NCBI RefSeq assembly: GCF_004104015.1
Contig: NZ_RYFV01000008.1
Location: 1-64,000, forward strand
Length of the DNA: 64,000 nucleotides
Source of the DNA: Actinomyces oricola
GTDB taxonomy: Bacteria > Actinomycetota > Actinomycetes > Actinomycetales > Actinomycetaceae
Direction of reading: 5' to 3'
The notes below the pieces were generated by a model. That model searched no databases. It had not been told where the DNA came from and saw only the letters and a list, made by a program, of their open reading frames with translations. Shown piece by piece: positions 563 to 56,658 of this stretch. Position numbers and translations under genes: made by a program. Numbering within the stretch: position 1 is the stretch's first letter; each line of letters opens with the position of its first letter.

Positions 563-762
563 TTGCACATTCTTTCCTCCCCCAAGGAGCGAAGAAGCGC
601 GGAATCCTGCGGATCTGTCCGGAATCCGGGCGCCCAGGAACGGGATGAATGTGCGAACGGGGACGCCATTGCACATTCATCCTTGCCGAACCGACCCCCT
701 GCAACGAGGAATCGTTGAAATACCAACGATCCCCCACAGGCCGGCGCAAGAAGAATGTGCAA
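563..762 (+). repeat. 200-bp two-module palindromic intergenic repeat, copy 1
   Basis: Module A (563-656) starts with TTGCACATTCTTTCC and ends with GATGAATGTGCGA. Module B (669-762) starts with TTGCACATTCATCC and ends with GAAGAATGTGCAA. So each module is closed by inverted TTGCACATTC termini. Module A holds a GCGGAATCCTGCGG stem-loop core. Module B holds a hairpin with arms GGAATCGTTG and CAACGATCCC around AAATAC. The unit recurs at 56460-56658 (same orientation, very similar) and at 42374-42573 (inverted, more diverged). It begins 4 bp after the panD stop codon. The remaining 763-913 shows no gene or other structure I can support. Confidence 0.85.
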
Positions 763-913
763 CACCACCAAGAACCGGGCCAATGAGACCTCAGGACGCC
801 AGGGCCACAAGCAACAACCAGCTCAGGAGGCCTTGGCCGCACATGGTGTGGGTTCAGGCGGTAATGATGTGGAAGCAACGTGGGGTCGGCCGGCGAGTAA
901 TCGGGCGAATGAT

Positions 914-1180
914 TCAGTGAGGACAACGGCCGCCAGGGAGGTGGGGCGCCCGTGCGGCCCGGTCCCCTAGGCGATAGCCCAACCCTTCGACCTGGCAGTA
1001 GCGGGGGCGCCCGTGCGGCCCGGTCCTGTAGACCACCATGGCGGGCAGGTCCTCGGCGAGGAGTCTGCGCAGCCGCGCCTCCGGCTGCCCTGCGGCTTCG
1101 CGCATGAGATCGAGTGCCTCACGGCCGGCCAAGTCCCTGCCGGCAAATCGCCGTACTGCCGCATCCGCCATCCTGTCCAC
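914..1180 (-). CDS. small hypothetical protein (doubtful)
   Basis: An 88-codon frame lies downstream of, and on the same strand as, the DUF624/ABC transporter genes. It is Arg/Ala-rich (for example ADAAVRRFAGRDLAGREAL) with no membrane segment, signal peptide or family motif I recognise. No convincing ribosome site precedes the ATG. Its 3' half contains an exact 23-bp direct repeat read in two different frames, which argues against a constrained protein there. It could be the remnant of a longer gene at the end of the sugar operon, or non-coding. Confidence 0.3.
   Translation of the reverse strand: MDRMADAAVRRFAGRDLAGREALDLMREAAGQPEARLRRLLAEDLPAMVVYRTGPHGRPRYCQVEGLGYRLGDRAARAPHLPGGRCPH
943..1026. 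repeat. exact 23-bp direct repeat, 61-bp period
   Basis: The same 23 bases (GGGGCGCCCGTGCGGCCC followed by GGTCC) occur at 943-965 and at 1004-1026, separated by 38 bp of unrelated sequence. Only two copies exist, so this is more likely a local duplication than an array. Confidence 0.7.
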
Positions 1181-1273
1181 GACCCACCCTACGGAGCACC
1201 CCGAAGAAGGAGGGTGGGCGCGGGAGATAAGGAGGCGGTGCGGCGCAGGCGGGTGGCGGAATGGACGCCCGGC

Positions 1274-1906
1274 TCATTGCCCGCCGCGGGCGGTCTGGCG
1301 CAGGCGGTCAATGACGCGGCGCTGAATGAGGGCGATGAGGTAGGCCTGGAAGCCGACGCCAATGAGCACCATGAACCAGATCAGCCCCGTCCAAACCCCC
1401 GGCAGGAACCAAACCAGGGCCAGCGGGGCGAGAACGACGAGCAGGCACAGCCCGGTCAGGCCCAGTGCTCCGACGGCCAGTCGGGCGGCGTTGGCTATGT
1501 GGCGGCCCAGGGGGGCGGAGAAGAAGGCCGTTAGGGGCACCAGCCACACAACCACGCCCAAAAGGACGACACCACCGGCCAGCACCAGCCCGGACAGCGC
1601 CCCGCCACCTGCGTCGGCCAGCAGCAGGTACTCCCACAGGCCCAGGGCCGCCAAGGCGAGCACCAACGGCCACCACAGGAGGGACTGGCCCAGGGCGCTG
1701 CGCCAGGCGCGCCACCAGGAGCGCACTATGTAGGTCTCCTCGTCGCGGGCCATCTCCATGGTCACTCGCGCGCAGGCGCTCAGGGCGGCGCCGGCTGTGA
1801 GCACCGGCAGACAGGCCAGGAGGGTGAGGGCGTTAACAATGACCAGGTCGGCGGCGGCGTTCCAGGCCCGGTAGACCGGGGAGTCGATCCTGAGCAGACC
1901 AGCCAT
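1274..1906 (-). CDS. DUF624 (YesL-like) membrane protein
   Basis: A 210-residue integral membrane protein with about five hydrophobic segments. It opens with MAGLLRIDSPVYRAWNAAADL and then a segment with LTLLACLPVLTAGAALSA, the N-terminal pattern of the DUF624/YesL family (a first helix preceded by a W-N/A-x2-D/N-L segment and followed by P-V-x-T-x-G-A-A). Genes of this family usually sit beside carbohydrate ABC transporter genes, as here, 184 bp downstream of the second permease. The molecular role is not established; an accessory role in sugar uptake or polysaccharide use is inferred from context only. Confidence 0.75.
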   Translation of the reverse strand: MAGLLRIDSPVYRAWNAAADLVIVNALTLLACLPVLTAGAALSACARVTMEMARDEETYIVRSWWRAWRSALGQSLLWWPLVLALAALGLWEYLLLADAGGGALSGLVLAGGVVLLGVVVWLVPLTAFFSAPLGRHIANAARLAVGALGLTGLCLLVVLAPLALVWFLPGVWTGLIWFMVLIGVGFQAYLIALIQRRVIDRLRQTARGGQ

Positions 1907-2090
1907 GAGGGCTCCTTTGGCGTGGATAGTGCGGTTTGCGCGCCGGGCGCGGGTGAGACGCGGCCCGGTGCGGGTGAGACGCGGTTAGAGGTCGAGGCTG
2001 CCCGCGCCTGCGCGCCCCCGAGTCCCCGGCGTGGTGCCGGGCTCCGGGATGCCGGCGTGGGCAGCCTCTTGTCGGAACTGCGGGTACTGC

Positions 2091-2981
2091 TCAGCCCTTG
2101 ACGGCGCCGGCGGCCACGCCCTCGATAATGTGTCTCTGCCCGAAAAGGTAGAAAGTGACAATCGGGACGATCGCCAGCACCAGCATAGCCATCTGGGCGC
2201 CCATGTCACGGTTCCCATTGGAGCCGATGAGCATCTGGATAACAATGGGGATGGTCTTGTACCGCTCATCTTGGCCAATGACGAGGTTGGGCAGAAGGAA
2301 GTCGTTCCACACCCACATGGCGTTGAGGATGGCCACGGTTACGGCGGTGGGCCTGAGCAGCGGCATGACCACCCTAATGTAGGTCTGCAACGGTGAGCAG
2401 CCATCGATGTAGGCGGCCTCCTCAATCTCGACGGGGACTGACCTGACGAAGCCGGCGAACAGGAATACCGACAGTCCACCCCCGAACCCCAGGTAGAGCA
2501 CGATCATGCCCCATGGGGTGGCCAGGCCCAGCATGTCAGCGATCTTGACCGTGGGGAACATGACCATCTGGAAAGGCGCGATCATGGAGAAGGCGAAGGC
2601 GTAGTAGATCAGGGAGGTCCACCAGGTCTTGACCCGGGTCAGGTAGTAGGCGGTCATGGCGGTGAGCAGGACGATCACCAGGACCGAGCCGACCGTAATG
2701 AACAAAGACCAGCCGAGGGCCGGGGCGAAACCGGAGAGATTGAGGCCGGTGACATAGTTGTCGATCCCGGCGAAGGTATCACGCGTGGGCAGGGCGAAAG
2801 GATCGGTGGAGATGAAGGCCCTGCCCTTGAAGGAGTTAATGAGGATGAACGCCAGCGGCACCACCCAGATCAGGGACAGCAGTGCCAGCAGGGCGACGAT
2901 TATGGAGCGTCCAGCACTGAGCGGGGCTTTGCGCGGCGCGCTGGGGGCTTCTGCGGGCGCGGTCTGAACGGCGGCGCTCAT
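2091..2981 (-). CDS. carbohydrate ABC transporter permease, MalG type
   Basis: A 296-residue inner membrane permease with six hydrophobic segments. The EAA loop that contacts the ATPase reads EIEEAAYIDGCSPLQTYIRV, close to the consensus EAA-x3-G. The start is ATG 2981: its ATGA overlaps the stop of the upstream permease and GGAGG lies 7 nt ahead. Further upstream in-frame codons lack a ribosome site and would extend deep into the neighbour. Together with the next two genes it forms a sugar importer (CUT1-like). No ATPase is encoded nearby, so a shared MsiK/MalK-type ATPase encoded elsewhere is expected. Confidence 0.9.
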   Translation of the reverse strand: MSAAVQTAPAEAPSAPRKAPLSAGRSIIVALLALLSLIWVVPLAFILINSFKGRAFISTDPFALPTRDTFAGIDNYVTGLNLSGFAPALGWSLFITVGSVLVIVLLTAMTAYYLTRVKTWWTSLIYYAFAFSMIAPFQMVMFPTVKIADMLGLATPWGMIVLYLGFGGGLSVFLFAGFVRSVPVEIEEAAYIDGCSPLQTYIRVVMPLLRPTAVTVAILNAMWVWNDFLLPNLVIGQDERYKTIPIVIQMLIGSNGNRDMGAQMAMLVLAIVPIVTFYLFGQRHIIEGVAAGAVKG

Positions 2982-3823
2982 GCGTCGACCTCCTTGGAAC
3001 GGGTTGCGGTCAGCTGAAGCAGCGCAATGGTGGAAACAATAATGAAGAAGATGACGGCCTCGGCTTGAGCAGTGCCCTCGTGGCCGACCTTGACATACAT
3101 GGTGTCCACAATATTGAGCGCCGCCATCTGCGTCTGCTTGAGTGGTGCTCCGTTGGTCAATGCAAGGTTCTGGTCGTACATCTTGAAGGTGCTGGCCAAC
3201 GTCAAGAACAGGCAGATCGTGATTGAGGGCATGATCATGGGCAGGGTCACGTGCCGCAGCGTGGCCCATTTTCCGGCGCCGTCGATCTGAGCGGCCTCAA
3301 TGAGCTCTGGGGGCACGTTCTGCAGGCCGGCGATGTAGATGACCATCATGTAGCCCACCAACTGCCAGTTGATGAGGAGGATGAGGCCGGCCAGGCCCAG
3401 GCGCCAGTCGTTGACAATGGTCTGACCCCAGCGCTGGAGGATCGAGTTGAGCATGACCTGCCAGGTGTAGCCCAAGACAATGCCGCCAATGAGGTTGGGC
3501 ATGAAGAACACCGAGCGGAAGAGGTTGGTGCCCCGCAGCTTGCGGGTCAGCAGGTAGGCCAGGGCGAAGGCGGCAATATTGACGGTAATAATGGAGATCG
3601 CCGACACCAGGGCGGTGAACACCAGCGCCGAGACGAAGCCGGATCCTTTATCGAAGGCGTCAACGTAGTTCTGGGCGCCGACGAACTTGGCGTCGGTCAG
3701 GGTGGTGAATTCGGTGAAGGACAGGTACAGCCCCATGAAGAAGGGGATGACGAAGGCTATGAGAAACGCCAGGAGCGTGGGCCCGGCGAACACTGGGAAG
3801 TATTTTTTAAGTGAAGTGGTCAT
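2978..3823 (-). CDS. carbohydrate ABC transporter permease, MalF/UgpA type
   Basis: A 281-residue permease with six membrane segments and the EAA loop ELIEAAQIDGAGKWATLRHV. The FYLSF-like start (MGLYLSFTEFTTL) and short periplasmic part put it in the group of CUT1 first permeases without the large MalF P2 domain. It is co-translated with the following permease (4-bp overlap). It is separated from the binding-protein gene by 100 bp that contain a 40-bp perfect palindrome. Confidence 0.9.
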   Translation of the reverse strand: MTTSLKKYFPVFAGPTLLAFLIAFVIPFFMGLYLSFTEFTTLTDAKFVGAQNYVDAFDKGSGFVSALVFTALVSAISIITVNIAAFALAYLLTRKLRGTNLFRSVFFMPNLIGGIVLGYTWQVMLNSILQRWGQTIVNDWRLGLAGLILLINWQLVGYMMVIYIAGLQNVPPELIEAAQIDGAGKWATLRHVTLPMIMPSITICLFLTLASTFKMYDQNLALTNGAPLKQTQMAALNIVDTMYVKVGHEGTAQAEAVIFFIIVSTIALLQLTATRSKEVDA

Positions 3824-3859
3824 TGTTGTCTCTGCTTGAGCTCCGCGTGGTCAGTGCGC

Positions 3860-3899
3860 ACGATGGCGCCCGGCCCGGTACCGGGCCGGGCGCCATCGT
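3860..3899 (-). terminator. 40-bp perfect palindrome between binding-protein and permease genes
   Basis: Bases 3860-3899 are perfectly self-complementary, with arms ACGATGGCGCCCGGCCCG meeting at a central GTAC. The transcript would fold into a very stable hairpin after the binding-protein stop. There is no U-run, so it may act as a partial terminator or as an RNA-stabilising 3' structure. Either would leave more binding-protein mRNA than permease mRNA, the usual stoichiometry in such operons. Confidence 0.6.
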
Positions 3900-3923
3900 C
3901 GGTGCGAGACTGGGATACTGGAA

Positions 3924-5240
3924 TCAGGCCTTCTCGGCGGCCCACTGGGTGACGAAGTAGTCCTTGACCGCGGCCCAGTCCTCGTTCCCGGAGGCGTACT
4001 GGGCCAGGTGCTGGCCGAGCTGGTTCTTGAACTCCTGGCTCGGGAAGGTGGGGAACACCCAGTTGATGGTGTACAGGTCGTCGTTGTTCATGAAGGTGAC
4101 GACCTCCTTACCCAGCGGGTCGCTGGGAGCCAGGTCAACGAAGGTGTCGTAGGGGGCGATAAAACCAAGCTTCTCCGCGGCGAGCTTGGTGCCCTCGGGG
4201 TCGGTGAACAGCCAGGTGAGGAAGTCCGCCGACGCCTTCTGCCTCTCCTCGGAGGCCTTGGAGTTAATGGTCAGATAGTTCTCCGTGCCGATCGCAATGC
4301 CGGAGTTCTCCTCGCCCTCAACGCCGATGTAGATCGGCAGGAAGTGGATGTCCTCCTCCTTGACCGTGTTGCCCTGGACTTCGGCGATCTGGGACCAGGC
4401 CCAGTTGCCGTTCTGGACGAAAGCGGCCTTACCCAGGGCGAACTCGCTCATGGAGTCGGTGACGAGCTTGGCGCTCGTGGCGGAGGGGGCCACCGTGGAG
4501 TTGGCCAGATACAGGTCGAAGATCTGCTTGTAATTGTCCGAGTAGGTGAGCTTGACATCCTTGGAGTCCTGGACGCCGGCGTCGCGGTACTCGTAGAAGA
4601 GCGGGTAGTTGGCCAGGTGGGTCTGCCAGCGCCAGTCCTCGCCGGGGGACAGGGAGGTGGAGGCGAAGGCGCCGTCAATGCCCAGCTCCCCCTTCTTGGC
4701 CTGCATGTCCTCGGCGACTTCCTTGAGCTTGGCGAAGCTGTTGATCTCCTCGACAGAGGTGATCTTGGCGCCGTCGGTGGCAATGTAGGCGTTGAGGATG
4801 GCGGCGTTGTAGATCAGGCCGTAGCCCTCGTTGGCCAGCGGCAGGCCGTAGACCTTGCCGTCCTCGCCCTTGAGGGCCATGGTCGGGTCGGAAAGGTGCC
4901 CGGTGAGCTCCAGGTCGGTCATGTCCGAGGCGTAGGCCTCCCAGGTGGCCAGGCCGACGGGGCCGTTGAGGTTGAACAGGGTGGGCGGGTTGGACTTGGC
5001 GAGCTCGGACTTCAGGGTCTGGGCGTAGGTGCCGGAGGCGGCCGTCACGACCTTGACCTCCACACCGGTCTTCTCCTTGTAGGTGGCGGCGACCTCCTTG
5101 AAGGCGGCATCCGACTCGGGCTTGAAATTCAGGAAGTAGACACTGGCCGCGTCCGAACCGCTTGAGCAGGCAGCCAGGGTCGCGGCGGTCGCCAGGGCGA
5201 GCGAGCCGCTGAGCATGGTGCGGCGGGAGATAAGTGGCAT
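3924..5240 (-). CDS. sugar ABC transporter substrate-binding lipoprotein
   Basis: A 438-residue extracellular binding protein. The N-terminus has SRRTMLSGSLALATAA followed by the lipobox LAAC, so it is exported and lipid-anchored at Cys; the twin Arg suggests possible Tat export. The mature part matches family 1 (MalE-like) solute-binding proteins, for example the NWAW and NYLTINSKASEE regions. ATG 5240 is chosen because AAAGGAGG lies 9 nt upstream and the signal peptide begins there; the frame stays open for 50 further codons without export features. The substrate cannot be told from sequence. Confidence 0.92.
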   Translation of the reverse strand: MPLISRRTMLSGSLALATAATLAACSSGSDAASVYFLNFKPESDAAFKEVAATYKEKTGVEVKVVTAASGTYAQTLKSELAKSNPPTLFNLNGPVGLATWEAYASDMTDLELTGHLSDPTMALKGEDGKVYGLPLANEGYGLIYNAAILNAYIATDGAKITSVEEINSFAKLKEVAEDMQAKKGELGIDGAFASTSLSPGEDWRWQTHLANYPLFYEYRDAGVQDSKDVKLTYSDNYKQIFDLYLANSTVAPSATSAKLVTDSMSEFALGKAAFVQNGNWAWSQIAEVQGNTVKEEDIHFLPIYIGVEGEENSGIAIGTENYLTINSKASEERQKASADFLTWLFTDPEGTKLAAEKLGFIAPYDTFVDLAPSDPLGKEVVTFMNNDDLYTINWVFPTFPSQEFKNQLGQHLAQYASGNEDWAAVKDYFVTQWAAEKA

Positions 5241-5362
5241 ACGGGAAGTCCTCCTTTGGACGCGAGAGGTGGCGGGGCTCTCGCCCACCGGTGGGAGTTG
5301 CCGCGGGGGCATCGGATCCACGGGTAGGTCCGGGCCTCGACGGCGACGCCCAATCATTGCAC

Positions 5363-5390
5363 AAAGTACATGTCCGTTGCTGCAAGGCAA
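5363..5390 (-). promoter_or_regulatory. candidate sigma-70 promoter for the sugar importer operon
   Basis: On the minus strand TTGCCT (5390-5385) and TACTTT (5368-5363) are separated by 16 bp, and lie about 125 bp upstream of the binding-protein start. The surrounding segment is clearly richer in A/T than the rest of the gap. No LacI-type operator with full dyad symmetry was found. The assignment is weak. Confidence 0.35.
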
Positions 5391-5550
5391 TACAGAACTG
5401 CGTCCTCAGTCACACGCGGCTGCGCCTCGGCCTACCACCACGGCGCCTGGACCGCCAATACCCCAGACCCTGGGCCCTGCGCCGTCGTCCCGGTCGGATG
5501 CCGGCAGGCCGGCGGAATCAAGAGATCGAGATCGTGGAGCCAATGACGCA

Positions 5551-5587
5551 CTCGACCCCCGGCACCGTTCCCGGACCGGGGGTCGAG
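5551..5587 (-). terminator. hairpin terminator after fba
   Basis: A 12-bp perfect stem (CTCGACCCCCGG at 5551-5562 pairing with 5576-5587) with a 13-nt loop sits about 120 bp beyond the fba stop and before the sugar operon promoter. It is the only strong hairpin in the 467-bp gap 5241-5707, which otherwise holds the candidate promoter and no gene. Confidence 0.55.
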
Positions 5588-5707
5588 TATTGCTCGGGCG
5601 GCCCGCACCGCCTCCGGTGTGGGGCGAAGCGACCGCCTGCCCTCTCGAACAGGTAGCCGCGCGCCGCTCCTGGCGGGGGCGGTCAGGGGCCTGACCGGCG
5701 GTGAGGC

Positions 5708-7586: not shown

Positions 7587-7629
7587 CGGGCATTGGGCGG
7601 GAGGGCCGGCGCCGGTCGAGCACCGGACG

Positions 7630-12826: not shown

Positions 12827-14740
12827 ATGACGACTTCTCCCCCTGGAGAGCCCCTCCCTAGCGACGCCGTGACAAACCCTGCAACAAGCGCCGCCGTGCT
12901 TGAGCGGATCGCGGCCGGTCACCCTGAGTTGCATGTGGCCATCCTGCGTCACCCCAATGCCCCGGCGAGCCTGACAAAGTGGATTAGCCAACTCAACCCC
13001 GAGGCCGCCCAGGAGGCGGCTCAAGCAGCGCAAGCAGCCGCGGCCCAAGCAGCCCAGGCGGCGCAAGCGGCCCAGGCGGCGCAAGCGGCCCAGGCGGCCC
13101 AAGCAGCCCAGGCGGCGCAGGCAGCCCAGGCGGCTCAAGCAGTGCAAGCAGCCGCGGCCCAGGCAGCCCAAGCGGCGCAAGCAGCCCAAGCCGCGCAAGC
13201 AGCCCAGGCGGCTCAAGTAGCCCAAGCGGCACAAGCAGCGCAAGCAGCCGCGGCCCAGGCAGCCCAAGCGGCGCAAGCAGCCCAGGCGGCTCAAGTAGCC
13301 CAGGCGGCTCAAGTAGCCCAGGCGGCGCAAGCGGCTCAGGCAGCGCAAGCTTTTCCAATGGCCGCCCCAGGCCCCATGCCATCGGCGGCGTCGGCACCCT
13401 CACTTGCGCCCACGGAAAACCAGGCGTGGGCTCCAGTAGCACCACCACCCGGGGTCTCCGGCACGGCACCGATGCCCCCCGGCGCGGCACCGATGCAGGG
13501 CCCCTTCCCAGGCCCCCGACACAAAAAGGGCAGGACAGCAGCCGTCATAGCCGTATTGCTCGTCGTCGTGCTCGCGGCCACCGGCGGGACCTTCTGGTTC
13601 CTGCATTCACGGGGCGACGACAACCCGTGGATCGGTTCCTGGTCCAGTACCTGGGCCGGGGGCACTCGAAAGCTGTGGAGTGTCGAGGCGCGGCGAGTAT
13701 GGATCTCTCAAGACGGCAGATGGATGGTCGCCGCCAGGGCATCAGGGTCCCGCTCATCCGAGGTCTCCTACGAGGCCTACCGCCTGGAGGGCGAGAAGCT
13801 CGGGGAGCCGATCAGCATGGACACGGATGAAACATTCTCATTCTCAGAGGTAGAAGAGGTTGTGTTCCTGGCCGACGGCAGGGCGGTCATTGGCGATGAG
13901 ACCTGCCAGCTCGCCAGCGGCAAGTGCCAGGAGGCTCCCTGGGACACCAACAAGTTCGGTATTGTCCTGGAGTTCCCGAACAAGAACCTTCTGGCCTACG
14001 ACAGCTCGTGCTTTCTGCGCAGTACGACCAGTTCTACGACCAGTTCTTGCCGATTCTTCCTTCTCGCCCCCAATGGCCAAGAAATCTCCTCCCTGAAGGG
14101 TCGCTACAGCGACATCCAGGCGCCGATGACGTGGAACCACGGGCCGGGCGACCGTTTCATTGCAATTGCCGCGGACACCATCGACATTGTGGACGCCAAC
14201 GATGGTCACGTCGTCGCGCACCTGGACGCCAGCGAGGGATTAACGCACGCAGCCTCCGACGGCATTGTCGTTGACAACAACAACAAGCTGACGGCCTACA
14301 CCTGGAACGGCGACGAGATGTGGCAGGAGAGGCATGGTGACGATAACCTCCTAAGCGTCTGGCGCGTGGAGTCCGTCGCCGAACTCCACAGCTTCCTGAA
14401 AGAGGATCTCCCTGAACTCTCCCCGGACGACTCATATTACGCGCTTGACAAAGACTCCAGGTACACGTTGAGGAACGGACGCGTGACAAGCCTTGTGACC
14501 GGTCAGACCATAAAGATCAGCTCCAGCTACGAGTATATTTTTCCTTTCGCCGGCGGTCAGGGCATCGCGGCGGCCACGCTGACGTCCGAAAAGCCTAAGA
14601 TCTCGTTCTGGGAGACAAGCGGCGGCAGCGAGGTCGACGTCGTCAAGGGAATGTCGTGGGTGTTCGGCTCCCAACGCCTCCTAGTCGAAGAAGAAGGCAC
14701 TGGTAAGAATTCAACGTACACCGTCTACGCCCCCAAGTAA
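12827..14740 (+). CDS. LRV-AAQ repeat-TM-ectodomain protein
   Basis: A 637-residue single-pass membrane protein. Residues ~12-55 (SDAVTNPATSAAVLERIAAG...ILRHPNAPASL) match the variant leucine-rich repeat (LRV) type of helical repeat. Residues ~59-174 are an almost pure Ala/Gln tract built on an AAQ triplet. A Pro/Ala linker follows, then a basic stretch (RHKKGR), a membrane helix at ~236-258, and a ~380-residue outer domain with repeated W-x-S/G-beta strands such as LWSVEARRVWISQDGRWMV, suggesting a propeller-like fold. The N-terminus lacks a signal peptide, so the LRV and AAQ parts are predicted cytoplasmic. ATG 12827 aligns with the paralogue's start. A tandem paralogue follows. Confidence 0.85.
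   Translation: MTTSPPGEPLPSDAVTNPATSAAVLERIAAGHPELHVAILRHPNAPASLTKWISQLNPEAAQEAAQAAQAAAAQAAQAAQAAQAAQAAQAAQAAQAAQAAQAAQAVQAAAAQAAQAAQAAQAAQAAQAAQVAQAAQAAQAAAAQAAQAAQAAQAAQVAQAAQVAQAAQAAQAAQAFPMAAPGPMPSAASAPSLAPTENQAWAPVAPPPGVSGTAPMPPGAAPMQGPFPGPRHKKGRTAAVIAVLLVVVLAATGGTFWFLHSRGDDNPWIGSWSSTWAGGTRKLWSVEARRVWISQDGRWMVAARASGSRSSEVSYEAYRLEGEKLGEPISMDTDETFSFSEVEEVVFLADGRAVIGDETCQLASGKCQEAPWDTNKFGIVLEFPNKNLLAYDSSCFLRSTTSSTTSSCRFFLLAPNGQEISSLKGRYSDIQAPMTWNHGPGDRFIAIAADTIDIVDANDGHVVAHLDASEGLTHAASDGIVVDNNNKLTAYTWNGDEMWQERHGDDNLLSVWRVESVAELHSFLKEDLPELSPDDSYYALDKDSRYTLRNGRVTSLVTGQTIKISSSYEYIFPFAGGQGIAAATLTSEKPKISFWETSGGSEVDVVKGMSWVFGSQRLLVEEEGTGKNSTYTVYAPK
13002..13349 (+). repeat. in-frame GCN-CAR tract coding Ala-Ala-Gln repeats
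   Basis: About 350 bp of near-periodic 9-bp units coding A-A-Q, with larger blocks (for example repeated GCAAGCAGCCGCGGCCCA words) that point to expansion by duplication. The paralogue at 14925 has only a short AQATQATQ stretch at this place, so the tract expanded after the genes split. Length variation between strains is expected. Confidence 0.9.
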
Positions 14741-19422: not shown

Positions 19423-19444
19423 CCCCCGCCCCCTCCTCCCCCCT

Positions 19445-19504
19445 TCCAACAAAATCCTCACAGCACAACGTCCACGGCTGCCGTGCTGTGAGGATTTTGT
19501 TGGA
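19445..19504. terminator. 22-bp-stem bidirectional terminator
   Basis: A perfect 22-bp stem (19445-19466 with 19483-19504) with a 16-nt loop between the convergent exonuclease and 376-residue hypothetical genes. The base of the stem carries AAAA/TTTT, so each strand transcribes a short U-run on leaving the hairpin. The flanks are pyrimidine-rich on one side and purine-rich on the other, extending the pairing further. Confidence 0.8.
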
Positions 19505-19522
19505 GAGAGGGAGGGGAGGGGT

Positions 19523-42373: not shown

Positions 42374-42573
42374 TTGCACATTCTTTCCCTCACCGCAGCC
42401 GAGAGGCCGGCGCCATTCCAACGATTCACCGAGGCAAGAGCGCCCAGACAAGGAAAGAATGTGCATCGGAGCGCTCCGTTGCACATTCATCCCCTCCCAG
42501 ACCTCTGACACAACCCGCCAGAACCGCATGATTCCGCGGTTCATAGATTCAAGATCGCGGAAAGAATGTGCAA
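42374..42573 (-). repeat. 200-bp two-module palindromic intergenic repeat, copy 3 (inverted)
   Basis: Same architecture as the copies at 563 and 56460 but in reverse orientation and more diverged. Modules 42374-42466 and 42479-42573 both start TTGCACATTC and end GAATGTGCA(A/T). The first has 14-bp perfect arms (42375-42388 with 42452-42465). Read on the minus strand the first module contains CCGCGGAATCATGCGG, matching the module A core CCGCGGAATCCTGCGG of the 56460 copy. The second contains GAATCGTTGGAA, matching the module B core GAATCGTTGAAA of the 563 copy. The centre (CGGAGCGCTCCG) is palindromic. The flanking 42574-42909 shows no gene or further structure. Confidence 0.75.
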
Positions 42574-45431: not shown

Positions 45432-46745
45432 CTAGTGGGCGGCGGTTGCGGTGCGGCTCGGCACGGCAACCGCCTCGTGCATTCGCCGGCCCCCGCCGGG
45501 GATGGCGTTGAGGAAGGCCTGGCGCACCTCCTGCTGGACCGCCAGGTCCGGGGACTGGCCGGCGAGGATTCCACCCAAGCGCAGCTGGGAGACGACGTCG
45601 AGGGCGGGCCGGGTGCGGTTGAAGGTGTAGAGGTGCAGTCCGGGGGCGCCGCCGTCAAGGACCTCGGTGGCCAGGCGCAAGGTGGCGTCAATGCCGCGGG
45701 TGAAGGTGCCCATGGCCCCGCCGCGGCCGTGGTCGCGCAGGGCGTCGTGAAGACGCTCGGGGACACGGACCCCGGTCAGGGGCTCCAAGCGGGTCAGGCG
45801 GCGCAGGTCGGTCAGGGGGATGATGCCGGGCAGGATCGGCAGGCTGACTCCGGAATACAGGCAGGCGCGGGTGAGGGCCAGGTAGTCCTCGGCGTCGTAG
45901 AAGACCTGGGTAATGGCCAGGTCAGCGCCCGCAGCCTGCTTGGCGGCCAGAATCTCCACGCCCAGGCCGTGGTCAATGGCGGCGGGGTAGGCGGCCACCG
46001 CGATCTGGAGGTGGCGCTCACCGTCGTCGAAGAACTCGGCCTCGACCTCGCGAATGACGCGCACAAGGTCCTCGGCGCGCCGCAGTTCGCCGCCGACCTC
46101 CTCGGGGGCGACCCCGCGGGGCGGGTCCCCGCGCAGGGCGAGGAAACGGCGCACCCCCATGCGCAGGAAGCGGCCAACGATCTCCACCACGTCGCGCTTG
46201 CGGTAGCCGATGCAGGTCAGGTGCGCCATGAGCGGCACCTGGGAGCCGGCCAAGACGCGGGCGATGACGTCCTCGGCCGGGTTGCGCACGGCGGGGTCGC
46301 GCTCGGTGGTGACCCGCACGCGGCGGCCGGCCGGCTTGGCGGACTGCTCGGGGACCTGCGCGGCGGCCCCGTCGGAGGCCGGGGCGGGAACTGTGGCGGC
46401 CCCGTCGGAGGCCGGGGCGGAGCCTGTGCTGGAGGCCGGGGCGGGAACCGTGCTGGAGGCCGGGGCGGGGCCTGGGTCGGCGGCGCCGGCCGAGCCCTCC
46501 GCCGGCGCCGCTGCTGGGCTCGCGGTGGATGCCGGTGTCGGAACCGCGGCGGACGGCGCGCCGGAGGTGACCGCGCTGGAGGTGACGAAGGAGGGCCGGT
46601 AGGTGACGGAGACGAAGTCGGGGCACAGGCCCAGCAGACGGTTGAGCGCCCCCCAGGTTTGGGAGGAGGAGGGGCCGGGGCGGGGCGGAAAGAGCTCAAG
46701 CGACAGGCTCGGCCTGTGAGTCTCAGGGCTAGCGGTGGCGTTCAT
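45432..46745 (-). CDS. metF: methylenetetrahydrofolate reductase with Ala/Pro-rich insertion
   Basis: A 437-residue FAD-dependent TIM-barrel reductase forming 5-methyl-THF for MetE. Seen: SLELFPPRPG with the catalytic Glu, PDFVSVTY, VPLMAHLTCIGYRKRDVVEI, RFLALRGDPPRG, ADLAITQVFYDAEDYLAL and GLHLYTFNRTRPALDVV. An ~85-residue Ala/Pro/Ser-rich stretch with tandem PAPASSTV/PAPASDGAA units replaces the usual short G-A-G-G-S loop after beta-2 (residues ~60-150). Family members are ~290-310 residues; the extra length is this insertion plus longer loops. ATG 46745 has GGAG 6 nt upstream. Activity is likely but not certain. Confidence 0.9.
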   Translation of the reverse strand: MNATASPETHRPSLSLELFPPRPGPSSSQTWGALNRLLGLCPDFVSVTYRPSFVTSSAVTSGAPSAAVPTPASTASPAAAPAEGSAGAADPGPAPASSTVPAPASSTGSAPASDGAATVPAPASDGAAAQVPEQSAKPAGRRVRVTTERDPAVRNPAEDVIARVLAGSQVPLMAHLTCIGYRKRDVVEIVGRFLRMGVRRFLALRGDPPRGVAPEEVGGELRRAEDLVRVIREVEAEFFDDGERHLQIAVAAYPAAIDHGLGVEILAAKQAAGADLAITQVFYDAEDYLALTRACLYSGVSLPILPGIIPLTDLRRLTRLEPLTGVRVPERLHDALRDHGRGGAMGTFTRGIDATLRLATEVLDGGAPGLHLYTFNRTRPALDVVSQLRLGGILAGQSPDLAVQQEVRQAFLNAIPGGGRRMHEAVAVPSRTATAAH

Positions 46746-46930
46746 AGAGCACTCCATCGGTCCTGGCGGAAGCACCCACCGGTTCGGGGTTGCTGCGGCG
46801 TCGCGGAGCCAGGTCTCTCAGCCGCTCTGGATGGACTGGACTCACCGTATCCCGGGCCAGTGCGGCCGACGACCATGCATCCACAGACCAAGAAACCGAC
46901 TACACGGTTAACTTTTGCCTCGATCACGCT

Positions 46931-50264: not shown

Positions 50265-50472
50265 GCCGCAGGGCCGGCCCAGGGGCCGCCCGCCCGGCCC
50301 CGACGGCCGCGCCCCGGCAGGCGCCCCAACCGGATCCTGGCAGCTGCACCGCCCCGGCGACCGCCCCACTCCGGCGGCTCCGGTTGCCGGCCCCGACCCG
50401 GCTCCACCCGACCCCGGGGCCCACATTCCCAACCCCGTCATCCGCCACGTTATTAATAAAGGAGTGCCCGAC

Positions 50473-50781: not shown

Positions 50782-52070
50782 GCGTGTTGAACTGGATTAT
50801 CAGCAACGTCCTGACTCAGGCCGGAATTGTCGTCGCGCTGATTGCGATGCTCGGCCTCATCTTGCAGAAGAAGGGGGTCGGGGGCACGATTATCGGGACT
50901 TTCAAGACCCTCCTGGGCTTCTACGTCCTGTCCGCCGGCTCGGCCATTCTAGTGGCCACCCTGACCTACTTCGGCACTATGTTCCAGGCGGCCTTCAATA
51001 TGACCGGCATTGTGCCGAGCATTGAGGCGGTCAACGGCTACGCCACCAATAACCTGGCCCTCGGCGGCCAGATCGCGATGACCTTCCTGGGCATCTTCAT
51101 CGTCAATATTATCCTGGCGCGCTTCACGCCCTTGAAGTACATTTTCCTCACCGGTCAGGCCCTGCTGTGGATGTCCACCATGACAGTGGTCTTCGGTTAT
51201 ACCGCCGGACTGCGCGGCTTCTGGCTGGTGCTGGCGGCCAGCATTGTCGGCGGCCTGTTCGCGGTGGGAATGCCCGCCGCCGCCCAGCCGATCGTCCGCA
51301 AGATCACCGGCAACGACGCCATCGCCCTGGGTCACTTCTGCACCATCGGCTACCTGGTGGAGGCCGGGGTGGCCTGGCTGGTGCGCAAGCGCGGCGTGGA
51401 CAAGCAGCCCTCCACCGAGGAGATCGCGCTGCCCCGCGCCATGGAGTTCCTTCAGGACACCTACATGTCCTTGGCCGTGGTCATGATCCCCCTCTACCTC
51501 ATTACGGCGGCCTTCGCCGGCCCCGCCCCGGTGGCGGAGACGACCGGGGGCATGAACTACCTGATGTACGCCTTCCTCCAGGCCATCCAGTTCGTCGTCG
51601 GCGTCTACGTCCTCATGGCCGGTGTCCGGCTCCTGCTGGGTGAGATCGTGCCGGCCTTCCGCGGAATCTCCATGAAACTGGTGCCCGACTCCAAGCCGGC
51701 CCTGGACTGCCCGGTGCTCTTCCCCTACGCCCCCAACGCTGTCATCGTCGGTTTCATTACGACGACGATCGGCACGGTGATCGCCATGTTCACCCTGCCG
51801 CTGGTCGGCTTCGCGGTCATTGTGCCGGGCATGCTCACCAACTTCTTCGCCGGCGGCACCGCGGGCATCTTCGGCAATGCGGTGGGCGGTCGGCGCGGTG
51901 CCATTGTCGGCGGCGTCGTCCACGGCCTCTTCATCACCCTGCTGCCGGCGCTGCTGGTCACCACCTTCCTCAACCTGGGGTTCCCCAACCTGTCGGCCAC
52001 AGATGTGGACACCATTGCGGCGGGCCTGTTCTTCGCCTACCTCGTGGGCCCGATCCTCAAGGCAGTTTGA
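50778..52070 (+). CDS. PTS EIIC component, UlaA/SgaT type
   Basis: A 430-residue permease with about eleven membrane segments. LGLILQKKGVGGTIIGTFKTLLGFYVLSAG at the N-terminus, and PYAPNAVIVGFITTTIGT and GGRRGAIVGGVVHGLFITLLPALL near the C-terminus, are typical of the ascorbate-type EIIC family. UlaA imports L-ascorbate as the 6-phosphate. None of the downstream ascorbate enzymes (lactonase, decarboxylase, epimerases) is encoded here, so the substrate may differ. Confidence 0.92.
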   Translation: MSVLNWIISNVLTQAGIVVALIAMLGLILQKKGVGGTIIGTFKTLLGFYVLSAGSAILVATLTYFGTMFQAAFNMTGIVPSIEAVNGYATNNLALGGQIAMTFLGIFIVNIILARFTPLKYIFLTGQALLWMSTMTVVFGYTAGLRGFWLVLAASIVGGLFAVGMPAAAQPIVRKITGNDAIALGHFCTIGYLVEAGVAWLVRKRGVDKQPSTEEIALPRAMEFLQDTYMSLAVVMIPLYLITAAFAGPAPVAETTGGMNYLMYAFLQAIQFVVGVYVLMAGVRLLLGEIVPAFRGISMKLVPDSKPALDCPVLFPYAPNAVIVGFITTTIGTVIAMFTLPLVGFAVIVPGMLTNFFAGGTAGIFGNAVGGRRGAIVGGVVHGLFITLLPALLVTTFLNLGFPNLSATDVDTIAAGLFFAYLVGPILKAV

Positions 52071-52088
52071 GGCGGAGGGCAGGCAGTT

Positions 52089-52481
52089 ATGGGACTCTTC
52101 CGCCGCCGGAAACCGCCGGCCAAGCCCGACGACGACGCCCCCCTGAGCGCCGAGCGCCGCGCCGACCTGGAGCACAGGGCCACGGCCCTCACCGGGACCC
52201 TGGACCAGGAACAAGACCCGGAGCGGCGCATTGCGCTCCTCAACGAGCTGGCGGCGACCTGCTGCGAGCTCGGCGACACTGACGCCGCAATCGCCCACTA
52301 CGAGGCCTCCATGGGTATCCGTGAGCAGTTCGGGCCGGCTTACAACGGCTTGCTCAGCCTCTACAACGACAAACTCAAGACGGCCGCGCAGGCTCAAGAC
52401 GACGCCGGCATCCAGCGCTGGACCACCCGGCTCGACGATCTCCTGGCCCTGTCCAAGCGCGTCATGCGCTCACGCTACTGA
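52089..52481 (+). CDS. small TPR-like protein of the PTS operon
   Basis: A 130-residue soluble protein. A basic start (MGLFRRRKPPAKP) precedes one or two TPR-like helical pairs (RIALLNELAATCCELGDTDAAIAHYEASMGIREQFGPAYNGLLSLYNDKLK). It starts 19 bp after EIIC, with GGAGG 10 nt upstream, and precedes the aldolase. Proteins of this kind are sometimes found with UlaA-type EIIC genes, but I know of no assigned role. Confidence 0.8.
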   Translation: MGLFRRRKPPAKPDDDAPLSAERRADLEHRATALTGTLDQEQDPERRIALLNELAATCCELGDTDAAIAHYEASMGIREQFGPAYNGLLSLYNDKLKTAAQAQDDAGIQRWTTRLDDLLALSKRVMRSRY

Positions 52482-52529
52482 CGCCGCGCCGTCGCCACCT
52501 CCAATCAGCCACCAGCAAGGACAGACGCA

Positions 52530-53378
52530 ATGTACGTTTCCATGACCCCACTGCTCGCCGAGGCGACCCGGGTGGGCTACACGGTGGGCGCCTTTAACGC
52601 CCACAACCTTGAAATGGTGCCACCCATGATCCGGGCGGCCCGCGACCTCGGGGCACCGATCATTATCCAGACCTCACCGGGCACGGCCCGCTATGTGGGG
52701 ATGAGGAATTTCGTCGCCGTGTGCCGCTCCATGGCCTCCGACGAGATCGTCGACGTCGCCCTCCACCTCGACCACGCCACGAACCTGACCGATATTCGCG
52801 ACGCCATTGAGGCGGGGTACTCCTCGGTCATGTTCGATGGCTCCCAGCTGCCCTTCACACGGAATGTGGCCACCTCGCGCCGCGTCATCGAGTACGCCCG
52901 CGACCACGGCGCGTCGGTGGAGACCGAGATCGGCACCATTGGCGGCACCGAGGAGGGCATTCGTAACAAGGTCGGCGTGTACACCCAGCCCGAGGAGGCC
53001 GTGCGCCTCCTCCAAGAGGTGGATACCGACGCGCTGGCGGTGAGCATTGGCACCAACCACGGCCAGTTCAAGGCCAAGACCCGGCTGGACCTGGACCTGC
53101 TCTCGCGGATCCACCGGGCTGTCGACGTTCCCCTGGTCATTCACGGGGGCACGGGCGTGGACGAGGCCGACTACCCCCAACTCACCGCCGACGGAATCCG
53201 GAAGTTCAATGTCGGCACCGAGTTGCTGGTGGGCTGGACCCGCACCGCCCAGGAGAGATTCGCCGCCACGAAGGTCAACTCTTCCCTGCGCAACAACATT
53301 GTGCCCTGCAACGACGTCGTCCACGACATTGTCGCCCACAAGATCAGTCTTTTCATGGGCGCCGACCGCTCCCAGTGA
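52530..53378 (+). CDS. class II ketose-bisphosphate aldolase (GatY/KbaY type)
   Basis: A 282-residue zinc aldolase. Seen: YTVGAFNAHNLEM, ALHLDHATNLTDI (Zn His), ETEIGTIGGTEEGI, LAVSIGTNHGQFK (Zn His) and LVIHGGTGVDEADYP. Short form, as in tagatose- or fructose-bisphosphate aldolases of catabolic operons, and different from the housekeeping Fba at 5708. AAGGA 8 nt before ATG. It would cleave the bisphosphorylated product of imported sugar. Confidence 0.92.
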   Translation: MYVSMTPLLAEATRVGYTVGAFNAHNLEMVPPMIRAARDLGAPIIIQTSPGTARYVGMRNFVAVCRSMASDEIVDVALHLDHATNLTDIRDAIEAGYSSVMFDGSQLPFTRNVATSRRVIEYARDHGASVETEIGTIGGTEEGIRNKVGVYTQPEEAVRLLQEVDTDALAVSIGTNHGQFKAKTRLDLDLLSRIHRAVDVPLVIHGGTGVDEADYPQLTADGIRKFNVGTELLVGWTRTAQERFAATKVNSSLRNNIVPCNDVVHDIVAHKISLFMGADRSQ

Positions 53379-53619
53379 CACCGGTCGAGGGCGGTTCGGG
53401 CCGCATGACGGGACTCGATGTCCTGATCCCCGGCCCGAACCCCCAGCCGGGCCGGGCCCGGTGCCCTGGCCCGCGCAGGCCCGGCTCCGGGCGCCCGTCC
53501 CCGGACGACCCGCCTGGGCGAGCGGGGGCGGCCCAGGCCCTCACCGTCAGCATTTCACCACCCGCCCGATCCCACGGTCCGGGCGCCCAGAGCGCCACCA
53601 CCGGAAGGAGAACCAGCCT

Positions 53620-54231
53620 GTGGCACCACCTACCCTCATCCTCGTGGCCGGCCTGCCCGGCACCGGCAAGACCCACTTGAGCAGGCTCATTGCCGACCAC
53701 GTCGGCAACTGCGAGCAGGTCTGCCTGGACCAGATCAAGGAGCGCCTGTGGGACCAAGTCGGCTTCCAGGGCCCGCAGGAGAAGGCCGCCATTGACCAAC
53801 GGGCGCTGAAGGTCTTCTTCCAGGAGGTCGGCGCCGCCATGGGCCGCAGCCGGGTGGTGCTCTCGGACTACCCCTTCAGCTCCAAACAGGGTCCCGCCCT
53901 GGCGGCCCTGTGCGCTCGGCACGGGTTCACTCCCCTGACTGTGCGGCTCGTGGCCGACCTCGACGTCCTCTACGAGCGCCAGCGCCTACGAGATCTCAAC
54001 AGCTCACGTCATCTGGGTCACATCCTGACCAGCTACCGCCCGGGGGATCAGCTCACCGAGCGCCAGGAGGCCGACGGGCTGCTCACCCGCGAGGAGTTGC
54101 GCCGTCGTTGCACCACCCGCGGCTACGGCTCTTTCGCGTTAGGGGAGGTGCTTGAGGTAGATATGAGCGACTTCGACGCCGTTGACCATCCCGCGATCCT
54201 CGCCTGGCTGGATGAGCACATGCGCGATTGA
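53620..54231 (+). CDS. P-loop kinase-like protein
   Basis: A 203-residue AAA/Zeta-toxin-like P-loop phosphotransferase. Walker A is LVAGLPGTGKTHLSRLIA, with CLDQIKERLWDQVGF and VVLSDYPFSSKQG as Walker-B-like segments and a lid region YERQRLRDLNSSRHLGH. GTG 53620 has GGAAGGAG 9 nt upstream; the open frame further upstream overlaps the aldolase and lacks similarity. A small-molecule kinase acting on the pathway sugar is a reasonable guess. The 241-bp gap before it holds nothing recognisable. Confidence 0.8.
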   Translation: MAPPTLILVAGLPGTGKTHLSRLIADHVGNCEQVCLDQIKERLWDQVGFQGPQEKAAIDQRALKVFFQEVGAAMGRSRVVLSDYPFSSKQGPALAALCARHGFTPLTVRLVADLDVLYERQRLRDLNSSRHLGHILTSYRPGDQLTERQEADGLLTREELRRRCTTRGYGSFALGEVLEVDMSDFDAVDHPAILAWLDEHMRD

Positions 54232-54312
54232 CCCACCACCCGGGCCCGGCCGCACCCGCCCATGGAGCCGGGGCACCACCAGCGGGCGTCACAAAGGAGA
54301 CGACAAGACCCC

Positions 54313-56232
54313 ATGGCACGGTTCACCGACATTATCCCGATCCTGGACCAGGATCCCGAGCGTCGTGTGCCCGCCGCCGAGATCGCGCGCCACCTGGGCG
54401 TGTCCACGCGCACGGTCCGCAACTACGTCACCGCCACCAACCGCCACTACGGGCGCCGCGTGGTGACGTCCTCGCGCGCCGGATACCGCCTGGACACCGA
54501 GGCCCTGGAGAGGGCGGTGGTCATGCGCAACGCCTCCCCTCACCCGGCCGAGGGCCCGAACGAACGCCTCATCCACATGCTGCGTGAACTCATAGCCACC
54601 GGCACCCCCCTGGACGTGTTCGACCTGGCGGAGTCCTTCCACGTCTCGGAGTCCACCGTCGAGTCGGACCTGACCCGGGCCCGGGTCCTGGTCACGCAGT
54701 TCGGACTGAGCATTGTGCGCTCCGGGCATCGGGTTCACCTGGAAGGCGACGAGGTGGCCCAGCGTCGTCTCATGCGCCGTCTCCTCATTGAGGCGGCGGT
54801 GAGCCGCCGCCAGTTCATTGACGTCGAGGAGCTGGCGCGCCAACTCGGCGAACCCGCCCTGCTCGACTTCAAACGGCGGATGCTCGCGGTTCTGACCTCC
54901 GCCGATCTTATTGTCAACGACCGCACTGCTGACGAGCTGGTCGCCCACATTGCCATTATGGTGGGGCGGGTGCGCACCGGCCACGCCATTTCCTGGCTGT
55001 CCGGGGCCCAGGACCGTGACGTGCTGAAGCCAATCTCGCAGGCCCTGGGGGGCCTGGTCGACGAGGTCTTCCATATTGAGCTGTCCGACCAGGAGCTCGC
55101 CTACCTGGCGCTGCTCCTCTTGGACAAGGCGGTCCCCGCCCGGCCCGAAGACCCCGCCCGCCCTGAACTGGAGGTCTTCCTGGACGCCCAGTACGTCGAA
55201 CTCGTCACCGACATTGTGCATAAACTCAATGAGAACTATCTCATTGACCTCAGCGATGAGCGGTTCACCGCCTTCCTCGCCCTCCACATTCGCCACCTGG
55301 TCGACCGGGCCTCGCACCACGAGGTCGCCCAAGTGCCCGCGGGCCAGTCGGTGAAGAACACCCACCCCCTGGTCCACGAGCTCGCCGTATTCATCGCCCA
55401 ACAGATTGAACGGGGCACGGGCATTAAGGTGGCTGAAGACGAGATCGGTTTTATCGCCTTCCACGTCGGTGGGCGCCTGCAATCCATGCACGAGCACGAC
55501 GACCAGGTGGATGTCACCGTGGTGGTCCCCCGCTATTACGACACCCACCTGCCCTTCAGTGAAGCGGTGGGGCGGGCCGTGGCCGGGACCGGCCGGGTGG
55601 AGCGGGTGGTCACGAATCTGGAGGAAGTCACCCCCGAGCTGGACACCGACCTCATTGTCACCACGGTGCCGTTGCACGACGTCCCCGACGTGCCGGTCAT
55701 CCGCACCGGACTCCTGCTCTCCCAGGAGGACCTGGGCCGAATCGGCACAATGGCGCAGAGAATCGCCGCCGGTCAGAAGCGCTTCAAGGCGGCGGCCTGG
55801 TTGACCACGGTCATGGACCCGCACCTCTTCATACGGATCCCCGGCGGGGGCTCGCGGGAGGCGGTGCTCTCAACCATGACGGAGGCGCTGGCCGGCCAGG
55901 GGGCGGTGGGGCCCGACTTCCTGGCCCAGGTCATGGAGCGCGAGCGCCTGTCGACCACGGCACTGCCCTCGGGCGCCGCTATCCCGCACACCATTGAGAT
56001 GACGGCGATCAGGTCGGCGATCGCCGTGTGCCTGGCGCACGAGCCGGTGGACTGGGCGGGCACACCGGTCAGACTGGTGGCCATGCTCTGTCTGTCCGAG
56101 GCCAGCCGGGACGCCTTCGGGGATGTGTTCGACGCTTTCATCCGCACTCTGGTCAACGACGAGAAGACCGCCCGCCTGGCGGCGGCCACCTCATACGACG
56201 ACTTCATTCAAACAATGCTCGCCATCCTCTAA
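54313..56232 (+). CDS. PRD-containing transcriptional regulator with EIIB/EIIA-like domains
   Basis: A 639-residue MtlR/LicR-type activator: HTH (PAAEIARHLGVSTRTVRNYV, ~20-40), second Mga-like HTH (DVFDLAESFHVSESTVESDL, ~105-125), PRD1 (~180-280), PRD2 (~295-395, with HIRHLVDRASHH and FIAFHVGGRLQ), EIIB-like domain (~410-500, no Cys at the usual site) and EIIA-like domain (~510-635, with SGAAIPHTIEM). Activity is normally tuned by PTS phosphorylation of the PRD and EIIA His residues. It ends the PTS operon and very likely controls it. Confidence 0.92.
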   Translation: MARFTDIIPILDQDPERRVPAAEIARHLGVSTRTVRNYVTATNRHYGRRVVTSSRAGYRLDTEALERAVVMRNASPHPAEGPNERLIHMLRELIATGTPLDVFDLAESFHVSESTVESDLTRARVLVTQFGLSIVRSGHRVHLEGDEVAQRRLMRRLLIEAAVSRRQFIDVEELARQLGEPALLDFKRRMLAVLTSADLIVNDRTADELVAHIAIMVGRVRTGHAISWLSGAQDRDVLKPISQALGGLVDEVFHIELSDQELAYLALLLLDKAVPARPEDPARPELEVFLDAQYVELVTDIVHKLNENYLIDLSDERFTAFLALHIRHLVDRASHHEVAQVPAGQSVKNTHPLVHELAVFIAQQIERGTGIKVAEDEIGFIAFHVGGRLQSMHEHDDQVDVTVVVPRYYDTHLPFSEAVGRAVAGTGRVERVVTNLEEVTPELDTDLIVTTVPLHDVPDVPVIRTGLLLSQEDLGRIGTMAQRIAAGQKRFKAAAWLTTVMDPHLFIRIPGGGSREAVLSTMTEALAGQGAVGPDFLAQVMERERLSTTALPSGAAIPHTIEMTAIRSAIAVCLAHEPVDWAGTPVRLVAMLCLSEASRDAFGDVFDAFIRTLVNDEKTARLAAATSYDDFIQTMLAIL

Positions 56233-56309
56233 AGGACTGCGCCGAGGGGCGGTGAAGATCGCCTCCTGTACTTGAGTTGCGCCGCGAGCCCCGGCACTCC
56301 GCACACCAT

Positions 56310-56459
56310 CTGGGCCCCTGGGCGCGCGGGCTTGGAGGCCGCCAAACGGATCCCCTTCGCCACGTCATCCTGGGCCCCTGGACGTGCGGGCTTGGAGGCC
56401 GCCAAACGGATCCCCTTCGCCACGTCATCCTGGGCCCCCTGGGCGTGCGGGCTTGGAGG
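56310..56459 (+). repeat. 60-bp tandem repeat, 2.5 copies, abutting repeat element copy 2
   Basis: Unit 56310-56369 is repeated at 56370-56429 with only two or three changes. A partial third copy (56430-56459) ends exactly where the TTGCACATTC terminus of the 200-bp element begins. The unit carries CGGGCTTGGAGGCCGCCAAA. There are no spacers, so it is not a CRISPR array. The flanking 56233-56309 shows nothing. Confidence 0.9.
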
Positions 56460-56658
56460 TTGCACATTCTTTCTTCCCTCAAGGAGTGGGGAGCCGCGGA
56501 ATCCTGCGGATCTGCTCGGGGCTTGAGGGTTCGGGAATGGGATGAATGTGCAACGGCGTCGCCGTTGCACATTCATCCTTGTCGAACCAACCTTCTGCGA
56601 CGAGGGATCGTTGAAATACCAACGATCCCTCACGGGCCGAGGCAAGAAGAATGTGCAA
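56460..56658 (+). repeat. 200-bp two-module palindromic intergenic repeat, copy 2
   Basis: Module A runs from TTGCACATTCTTTC (56460) to GATGAATGTGCAA (~56553); module B from TTGCACATTCATCC (56565) to GAAGAATGTGCAA (56658). The junction of the modules is a 39-nt perfect dyad with 19-nt arms (GGATGAATGTGCAACGGCG). Internal hairpins: CCGC-GGAATCCT-GCGG in A, and GGGATCGTTG-AAATAC-CAACGATCCC (10-bp perfect stem) in B. Module B is roughly 85% identical to that of copy 1 by eye. 56659-56880 holds no supported gene. Confidence 0.88.

Follow-up and report, generated by a model that had tools for sequence, protein, structure and literature searches.

REPIN-like dimeric palindromic repeats in Actinomyces oricola and their putative AbiEi-DUF559 nuclease partner

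The subject of this study is a family of short palindromic elements in a stretch of 64,000 nucleotides from Actinomyces oricola (positions 1 to 64,000 of the forward strand of contig NZ_RYFV01000008.1, assembly GCF_004104015.1), hereafter the window, and in the genome to which it belongs (G000; 2.93 Mb in 78 contigs). The window contains three elements of 199-200 bp, each built from two modules of 93-95 bp that are joined by a spacer of 11-12 nt. Copy 1 lies on the forward strand at 563-762 (module A 563-656, spacer 657-668, module B 669-762) and starts 3 bp past the stop codon of a duplicate of panD. Copy 2 is inverted at 42374-42573 (minus strand; module B 42374-42466, spacer 42467-42478, module A 42479-42573) and represents a second subtype that it has in common with a copy at C16:49454. 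Copy 3 is again found on the forward strand, at 56460-56658 (module A 56460-56553, spacer 56554-56564, module B 56565-56658). The modules are bounded by inverted termini: ten of the twelve terminal 10-mers are exactly TTGCACATTC or its complement, and the remaining two carry one mismatch each. In copy 3 the modules meet at a perfect palindrome of 39 nt at 56540-56578 (19 + 1 + 19); its module A has the core CCGC-GGAATCCT-GCGG (56494-56509, forward strand), which resembles the core of the single modules of sister species, and its module B the core hairpin GAGGGATCGTTG-AAATAC-CAACGATCCCTC (56602-56631, forward strand). Positions, two-module architecture, inverted termini, the orientation of copy 2 and the perfect centre of copy 3 are all as described in an initial annotation made from the letters of the window.

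The same annotation spoke of a family of three copies, which holds for the window but is only the window's share: the genome contains 20 dimers, of which a script retrieved 19 and the last has a mutated left end, and two other genomes of the genus, G017 and G053, contain at least 26 and 8 copies, respectively, counted by an exact pattern. These numbers go against the refuting outcome named by the annotation, namely that just the three copies would exist. Taken alone and with two mismatches allowed, the 10-mer is not more frequent in the window than expected by chance (20 versus 23.3 expected); inverted 10-mer pairs at the fixed spacing number 23 exact pairs genome-wide, and a reversed-pattern control gave 0. 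All 39 exact occurrences of TTGCACATTCTT in G000 are outer ends of dimers, the fortieth end being the mutated one, so that this search revealed neither a solo module nor a longer element with these ends and the dimer is the unit in this genome. With gene positions from our own rough gene caller, the intergenic position reported initially extends to the whole set: none of 54 copies in the three species lies inside a gene, and two overlap a gene end by 29 bp. Of the 51 copies that have a called neighbour on both sides, 24 lie between convergent and 6 between divergent genes (no genome-wide expectation was computed), and at 45 of the 51 one or both adjacent genes are directed towards the element.

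An exact pattern for the dimer centre is present in 5 of 49 genomes of the genus, namely G000, G017 (26 sites), G053 (8 sites) as well as G046 and G059 with one diverged site each. Both of these diverged sites (G046 L090 around 3145 and G059 L091 around 3250) lie upstream of a glycosyltransferase region and have outer ends unlike their centre. The layout of modules and spacer is 94/11/94 or 95/11/94 in 24 of the 26 copies of G017 and 94/11/106 in six of the eight copies of G053, and in a few copies of G017, as judged by eye, the partner of module A is an inverted A and not B. Mean identity within a species is 88% in G000 (18 copies), 73% in G017 (22 copies) and 77% in G053 (6 copies). As the initial annotation had observed for the window, the termini are conserved while the rest drifts: the majority base accounts for 99.2, 98.5 and 99.5% in the columns of the four sites of G000, G017 and G053 versus 91, 77 and 83% outside of them, where consensus and pair counts omit copies of other subtypes (2 of 20, 4 of 26 and 2 of 8, respectively). 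Three dimer sites were found to be orthologous between species when neighbours within 2.5 kb were compared, one behind panD, one behind rplI and one between two further genes. Further afield, a centre-pattern scan of wider genome contigs, from which records near this genome may be omitted, gave one stretch in Actinoplanes, and no match was found in viral contigs with the exact centre pattern or in plasmids and phages with one element as blastn query.

The dimers can be connected to a gene family by evidence that lay outside what the window sequence could show. The complete panD of G000 is found at C56 beside another dimer and the sole DUF559 (PF04480) gene that we found in this genome, and the dimer behind panD overlaps the end of this convergent DUF559 gene by 29 bp. 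A dimer of G017 with the same overlap (L112) was considered as a second case and discarded, the adjoining gene being metX-like by eye and not DUF559. In other species a strong centre hairpin stands behind panD whose sequence changes but stays complementary (AGTGTGCA, AGCGTGCG, CATGTGCA and others). Because of the overlap in G000 and these hairpins, we read the 3' ends of 30 DUF559 loci. In 17 of them, by our own selection from the search outputs, the gene is followed by a palindromic module of 119-120 bp whose inverted arms, around 18-24 bp long, vary between genes (TGTCCACAGAAATGACATTGG in G023, TGTCCGTCAGAATGACATTGG in G044, TGTCACGATCCAGGCCATT in G056) around a common core. One more locus is the G000 gene, which has a window-type dimer at its 3' end and terminates 29 bp inside it. 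A matching module of 120 bp is also present on the 5' side in 14 of the 17 loci (0-6 mismatches in 36 arm positions compared to a shuffled minimum of 13-17) and was not found at G014 L157, G047 L171 and G062 L173; neither the 14 nor the 17 loci are independent, since some come from close relatives (G001/G011/G048 and G050/G052/G055). Among 13 of these pairs (L150, near-identical to L149, was omitted), 5' and 3' interiors are alike in eight (0.62-0.97, with 95% of between-locus values below 0.57), five in direct and three in inverted orientation. At several loci the 5' module ends around 100 bp upstream of the gene start, and in G021, G022 and G046 the last codons of the gene run into the element. 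Four DUF559 loci with neither a 120-bp module nor a dimer (L162, L165, L164 and L148) end in inverted repeats of 71, 75, 93 and 181 bp, perhaps further module types.

A second set consisted of 21 homologues identified by protein alignment (21 of 22 strong matches, one being without a locus), two of which were already part of the first. Four of the 21 have arms on both sides that match at 16-18 of 18 positions (shuffled maximum 13-14), three have weaker modules on both sides (13-15, shuffled maximum 12), and five are one-sided. Dimers recur in this set: the homologue of G040 (L238), which scores no module in the arm test, has a dimer at its 3' end with arms TGCACATCTTC and a layout of 92/13/81 as measured from TGCA to TGCA, and the homologue of G022 has one of 92/13/115 at the same position. 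At G046 L230, outer GCACGCTCA and TGAGCGTGC sites stand at comparable distances, a dimer by spacing only. Measured in the same way, most dimers are 92/14/92 in G000, 92/13/92 or one base longer in G017 and 92/13/104 in G053, so that the length differences are steps of 11-12 bp or about one turn of DNA.

Modules also occur on their own. Single modules of 121 bp were found at 50 sites in 18 of the 49 genomes of the genus (reversed-pattern control: 0), some of them clearly orthologous, and these counts are lower bounds because the patterns require TGTC-N9-GACA arms. No DUF559-type gene lies within 1.5 kb at any of the 18 dispersed single-module loci that we examined. Among 297 genomes of the order, six of them from the genus, the 120/121-bp pattern matched two, both of the genus (G010 with 14 sites and G051 with one). 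A core profile was built from 47 single modules, 29 gene-linked ones and 18 of the 50 dispersed ones, with a seed hand-picked from cores already seen; in 104 of 108 dimer modules it scores the core above 95% of the shuffles of the module itself, and it places the core mid-module in all 108. A dimer of the window extended by 13 bp at each outer end has the length of two 120-bp modules that share around 12 bp (13 + 94 + 12 + 94 + 13), and judging from this geometry and the common core we regard dimers and single modules as parts of the same apparent system. Because single modules exist alone, an earlier view of the dimer as both ends of a single deleted transposon was given up in favour of two modules that overlap. 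Modules and genes further combine into module-gene-module cassettes of around 1.2 kb in which the gene encodes a nuclease-like protein and no known transposase. At L204 of G010, an MFS-transporter-like gene (1081-2652) lies between 120-bp modules at 674-793 and 2820-2939 as if it were a passenger. In G055, a different strong palindrome (GCACCCTGGTGTGCGG...CCGCACACCAGGGCGC) occupies L208 around 2455-2500, within an interval that in G014 holds a module of 121 bp.

The protein encoded by these genes combines an AbiEi-like part with a Vsr/EDxHD-like nuclease part (DUF559), as judged from profile searches and a predicted structure. When three of the proteins were scanned, Pfam placed DUF559 above its cut-off in two and REase_MTES_1575 below cut-off in all three, PADLOC reported AbiEi for the N-terminal half of two (best 1.4e-6, others weaker or none), and NCBIfam gave no match. 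When the predicted structure of the L156 protein (mean predicted local distance difference test, pLDDT, 90.4) was compared to the PDB by fold, the leading matches were 6y8q, an AbiEi antitoxin (E 5.4e-5), the homing endonuclease I-Bth0305I 3r3p (E 2.6e-3; probability 1.00 and a template-modelling score of 0.76 by target length) and Rv2827c 1zel (E 5e-3), of which only 6y8q falls below 0.001. Sequence-based matches to the PDB were limited to 3hrl and 3r3p and were weak (E 0.068 for 3r3p). All of 16 proteins compared share residues E211, D213, E223, D225, H230 and D239, which are candidates for EDxHD catalytic residues. AbiEi and Rv2827c bind inverted repeats of 23 bp (PMC7319586); at around 23 nt, the arms of our modules have about this size.

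The flanks of the dimers were considered as possible traces of their spread. To the left of copy 1, positions 177-559 of the forward strand (within the open reading frame 83-559) repeat the 3' part of panD; the "broken panD" of the initial annotation is this partial duplicate (97% over 610 bp, of which 386 bp lie left of the element). Its first codons are replaced, and a 31-codon C-terminal panD remnant exists elsewhere, both beside dimers; the places recorded for panD are window 83-559, L065 and C67:102846-102938. The left, A-side flank resembles the 3' end of panD in 9 of the 19 other G000 copies (better than all 100 shuffles, in one case by a narrow margin), which fits a spread from the copy at panD with one flank dragged along by a mechanism that we leave unspecified. 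Derivation of the right flanks from the DUF559 gene was rejected, as these rise above shuffles in just 1 of 19 copies. Locus-specific outer inverted repeats in the flanks were likewise rejected for G000, where 3100 of 5000 permutations that mix left and right sides were as good; such repeats are above chance in G017 (34 of 5000) and not in G053 (1429 of 5000). The tandem repeat to which the initial annotation had pointed is real: 2.5 units of 60 bp at 56310-56459 stop precisely where copy 3 begins on its left side. It is possible that this repeat preserves the unoccupied form of the flank of copy 3 (TTGGAGG/CCGCCAA). The notion that each element occupies the apex of a palindromic target is based on the same repeat and is speculative.

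Taken together, we consider it probable that the elements are non-autonomous, REPIN-like miniature mobile repeats that are partnered by a nuclease other than a RAYT and read as double-stranded DNA. In this model, a module comprises a pair of inverted recognition arms of around 23 nt, the innermost 10 nt of which are TTGCACATTC in G000, around a conserved core (AACC..GGAATCATGCGG or CGTTGGAAT..). The AbiEi-winged-helix/DUF559 protein would most likely bind all arms in double-stranded form from a single face of the helix, a mode of recognition that we infer from the invariant sites, the nearly exact lengths and the one-turn steps. The protein would then cut at or near modules, and repair or strand transfer would copy modules to intergenic sites, mostly downstream of genes, with movement in trans. 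Of the readings offered by the initial annotation, a mobile miniature element with nested repeats and a paired protein-binding site fit best, with both movement and binding as likely rather than observed properties.

Several observations weigh against this model. By the tests used here, a 120-bp module and a dimer are both absent from 12 of the 30 DUF559 loci, and 9 of the 21 homologues of the second set have no module; at the DUF559 gene of G000 we found a dimer on the 3' side but no module on the 5' side. G017 maintains 26 well-kept copies, yet its best match to the protein (E 1.2e-4) is no close homologue, and the arms at the G053 homologue are unlike the dimers of G053. Possibly these species have lost the partner, or else the pairing is wrong for dimers. 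One observation in favour of the model is qualified: in 8 of 11 genomes the arms beside the gene agree with a dispersed module of that genome at no more than 2 mismatches in 18, which 3 of 20000 permutations that ignored relatedness equalled; three genomes lack such a match (5-7 mismatches), and in at least four of the eight matching ones the modules of another genome fit equally or better. Arm distance correlates with protein distance (r 0.70), but the DNA-binding part does no better than the nuclease part (0.71) and module interiors reach 0.65, so that common descent explains the correlation and co-evolution specific to the DNA-binding part was rejected; neither this correlation nor the arm matching within genomes separates co-adaptation from descent. 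Direct traces of movement are also missing where we looked: no target-site duplication was noticed by eye at the flanks of modules and cassettes, no clean empty site emerged at the one locus where it was sought, and an occupied site of G014 compared to its deleted form in G012 indicates loss between CCAACCG repeats with 12 nt of arm left behind. Finally, the outer ends are not symmetric above shuffles in most relatives of the panD locus.

As an alternative, the modules could be fixed DNA sites of the AbiEi-DUF559 or another protein (autoregulatory operators, defence or genome-organising sites) that are kept by selection and spread by ordinary recombination without being mobile. Inverted arms with one-turn length steps and nearly invariant sites in otherwise drifting sequence suit such sites well, as do the 26 copies that G017 keeps without a close homologue of the gene and the nine of 19 left flanks that look like panD carried along. 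Moreover, the 5' modules that end around 100 bp before the gene start stand where AbiEi operators lie (PMC7319586). We nevertheless regard this explanation as unlikely, given that a module is also found at the 3' end of the gene, that copies are dispersed with just three orthologous sites among the three dimer species, and that copy number differs from species to species.

Miniature inverted-repeat transposable elements (MITEs) and Correia-type repeats are, like our elements, short and intergenic with inverted ends and no gene inside. Ordinary MITEs moved by a conventional transposase, with the DUF559 link arising from insertion into gene flanks, would account for the terminal inverted sites, the intergenic dispersal and the G017 copies without a close DUF559 homologue. 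A search for the Y1 transposase PF01797 was positive in 5 of 14 control genomes and in none of 24 others, 16 of which belong to the genus (including G000), though it covered this one transposase family and G017 and G053 lay outside of it. No longer element with the dimer ends was found in G000, where every exact TTGCACATTCTT is accounted for, nor was a parent transposon of known type or a target-site duplication noticed; gene-specific arms on both sides at 14 of 17 loci and a nested four-site layout with nearly exact spacing are likewise unlike such elements, which leaves ordinary MITEs an improbable answer.

The elements could also encode, downstream of genes, a structured RNA that acts as a guide, a regulator or a stabiliser of 3' ends and is perhaps an RNA partner of the nuclease. 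This reading, which corresponds to the "structured RNA pair" of the initial annotation, would agree with the compensatory changes of the centre hairpin between species, the excess of G-U over A-C in dimer centres read from A to B, the gene ends that enter the element in G021, G022 and G046 and the 45 of 51 copies at which a gene points, but is improbable in view of near-equal G-U and A-C counts in gene sense (15 versus 12 in the 29 gene-linked modules), nearly exact lengths with one-turn steps that are unusual for RNA, conservation of the site sequence itself and not of pairing alone, and an Rfam 15 scan of the window at gathering score that returned only tRNA and a SAM riboswitch, neither of them at the elements.

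Among described systems, REPINs and their RAYTs are the closest kind (Bertels and Rainey 2011, PMC3116915). That system and ours have in common a pair of inverted conserved ends around a hairpin-capable spacer, extragenic dispersal, an intervening length that is kept while its sequence changes, and single-copy genes alongside repeats of their own type in several flavours. They differ in that dimeric forms exist here and that the linked gene is AbiEi-like and Vsr/EDxHD-like, no Y1/HUH transposase having been found in the 24 genomes searched, 16 of them of the genus and none of them G017 or G053. The protein resembles AbiEi and Rv2827c in its fold (6y8q and 1zel), its PADLOC assignment and the inverted repeats of around 23 bp (PMC7319586); unlike them, it has a nuclease-like C-terminal half and repeats that lie on both sides of the gene and dispersed. 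To the EDxHD homing endonuclease I-Bth0305I (PMC3943268) it is similar by nuclease fold (3r3p) and by invariant acidic and histidine residues, whereas no intron or intein was noticed here and the gene is bordered by palindromic modules that are also found alone. No description of these modules was found in the open-access library searched, which omits most subscription journals.

Three further features of the window deserve mention. The SAM riboswitch lies on the minus strand at 46751-46837, just upstream of the open reading frame 45432-46745 and adjoining metE. A second family of intergenic-looking palindromes of 66-75 bp (CCAACAAAATCCTCACAGCACAACGTCC...) is represented at 19440-19510 of the window, at L060:1341-1408 and at L057:2748-2813, with one copy perfect over 68 bp. 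A coding-type tandem repeat of GCC/CAA-like codons extends over 13014-13350.

More tentatively, and as a possibility that we would not yet call probable, the modules could belong to a second, independently evolved REPIN-type system whose enzyme is not of the HUH class but an AbiEi-winged-helix/EDxHD nuclease akin to homing endonucleases, and which would recognise 120-bp modules by length and helical phase, keep them on both sides of its gene and spread them singly or as dimers. To our knowledge, REPINs are explained by a single enzyme class, the RAYTs. If our interpretation is true, enzymes of very different kinds can give rise to small palindromic repeats, and for the intergenic repeats of bacteria that lack RAYTs it would be obvious where to seek a partner. 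One subfamily of DUF559 proteins would gain a proposed role, and DNA readers of the antitoxin type would be tied to mobile DNA, a prediction that is direct and cheaply testable with one protein and one DNA of 120 bp.

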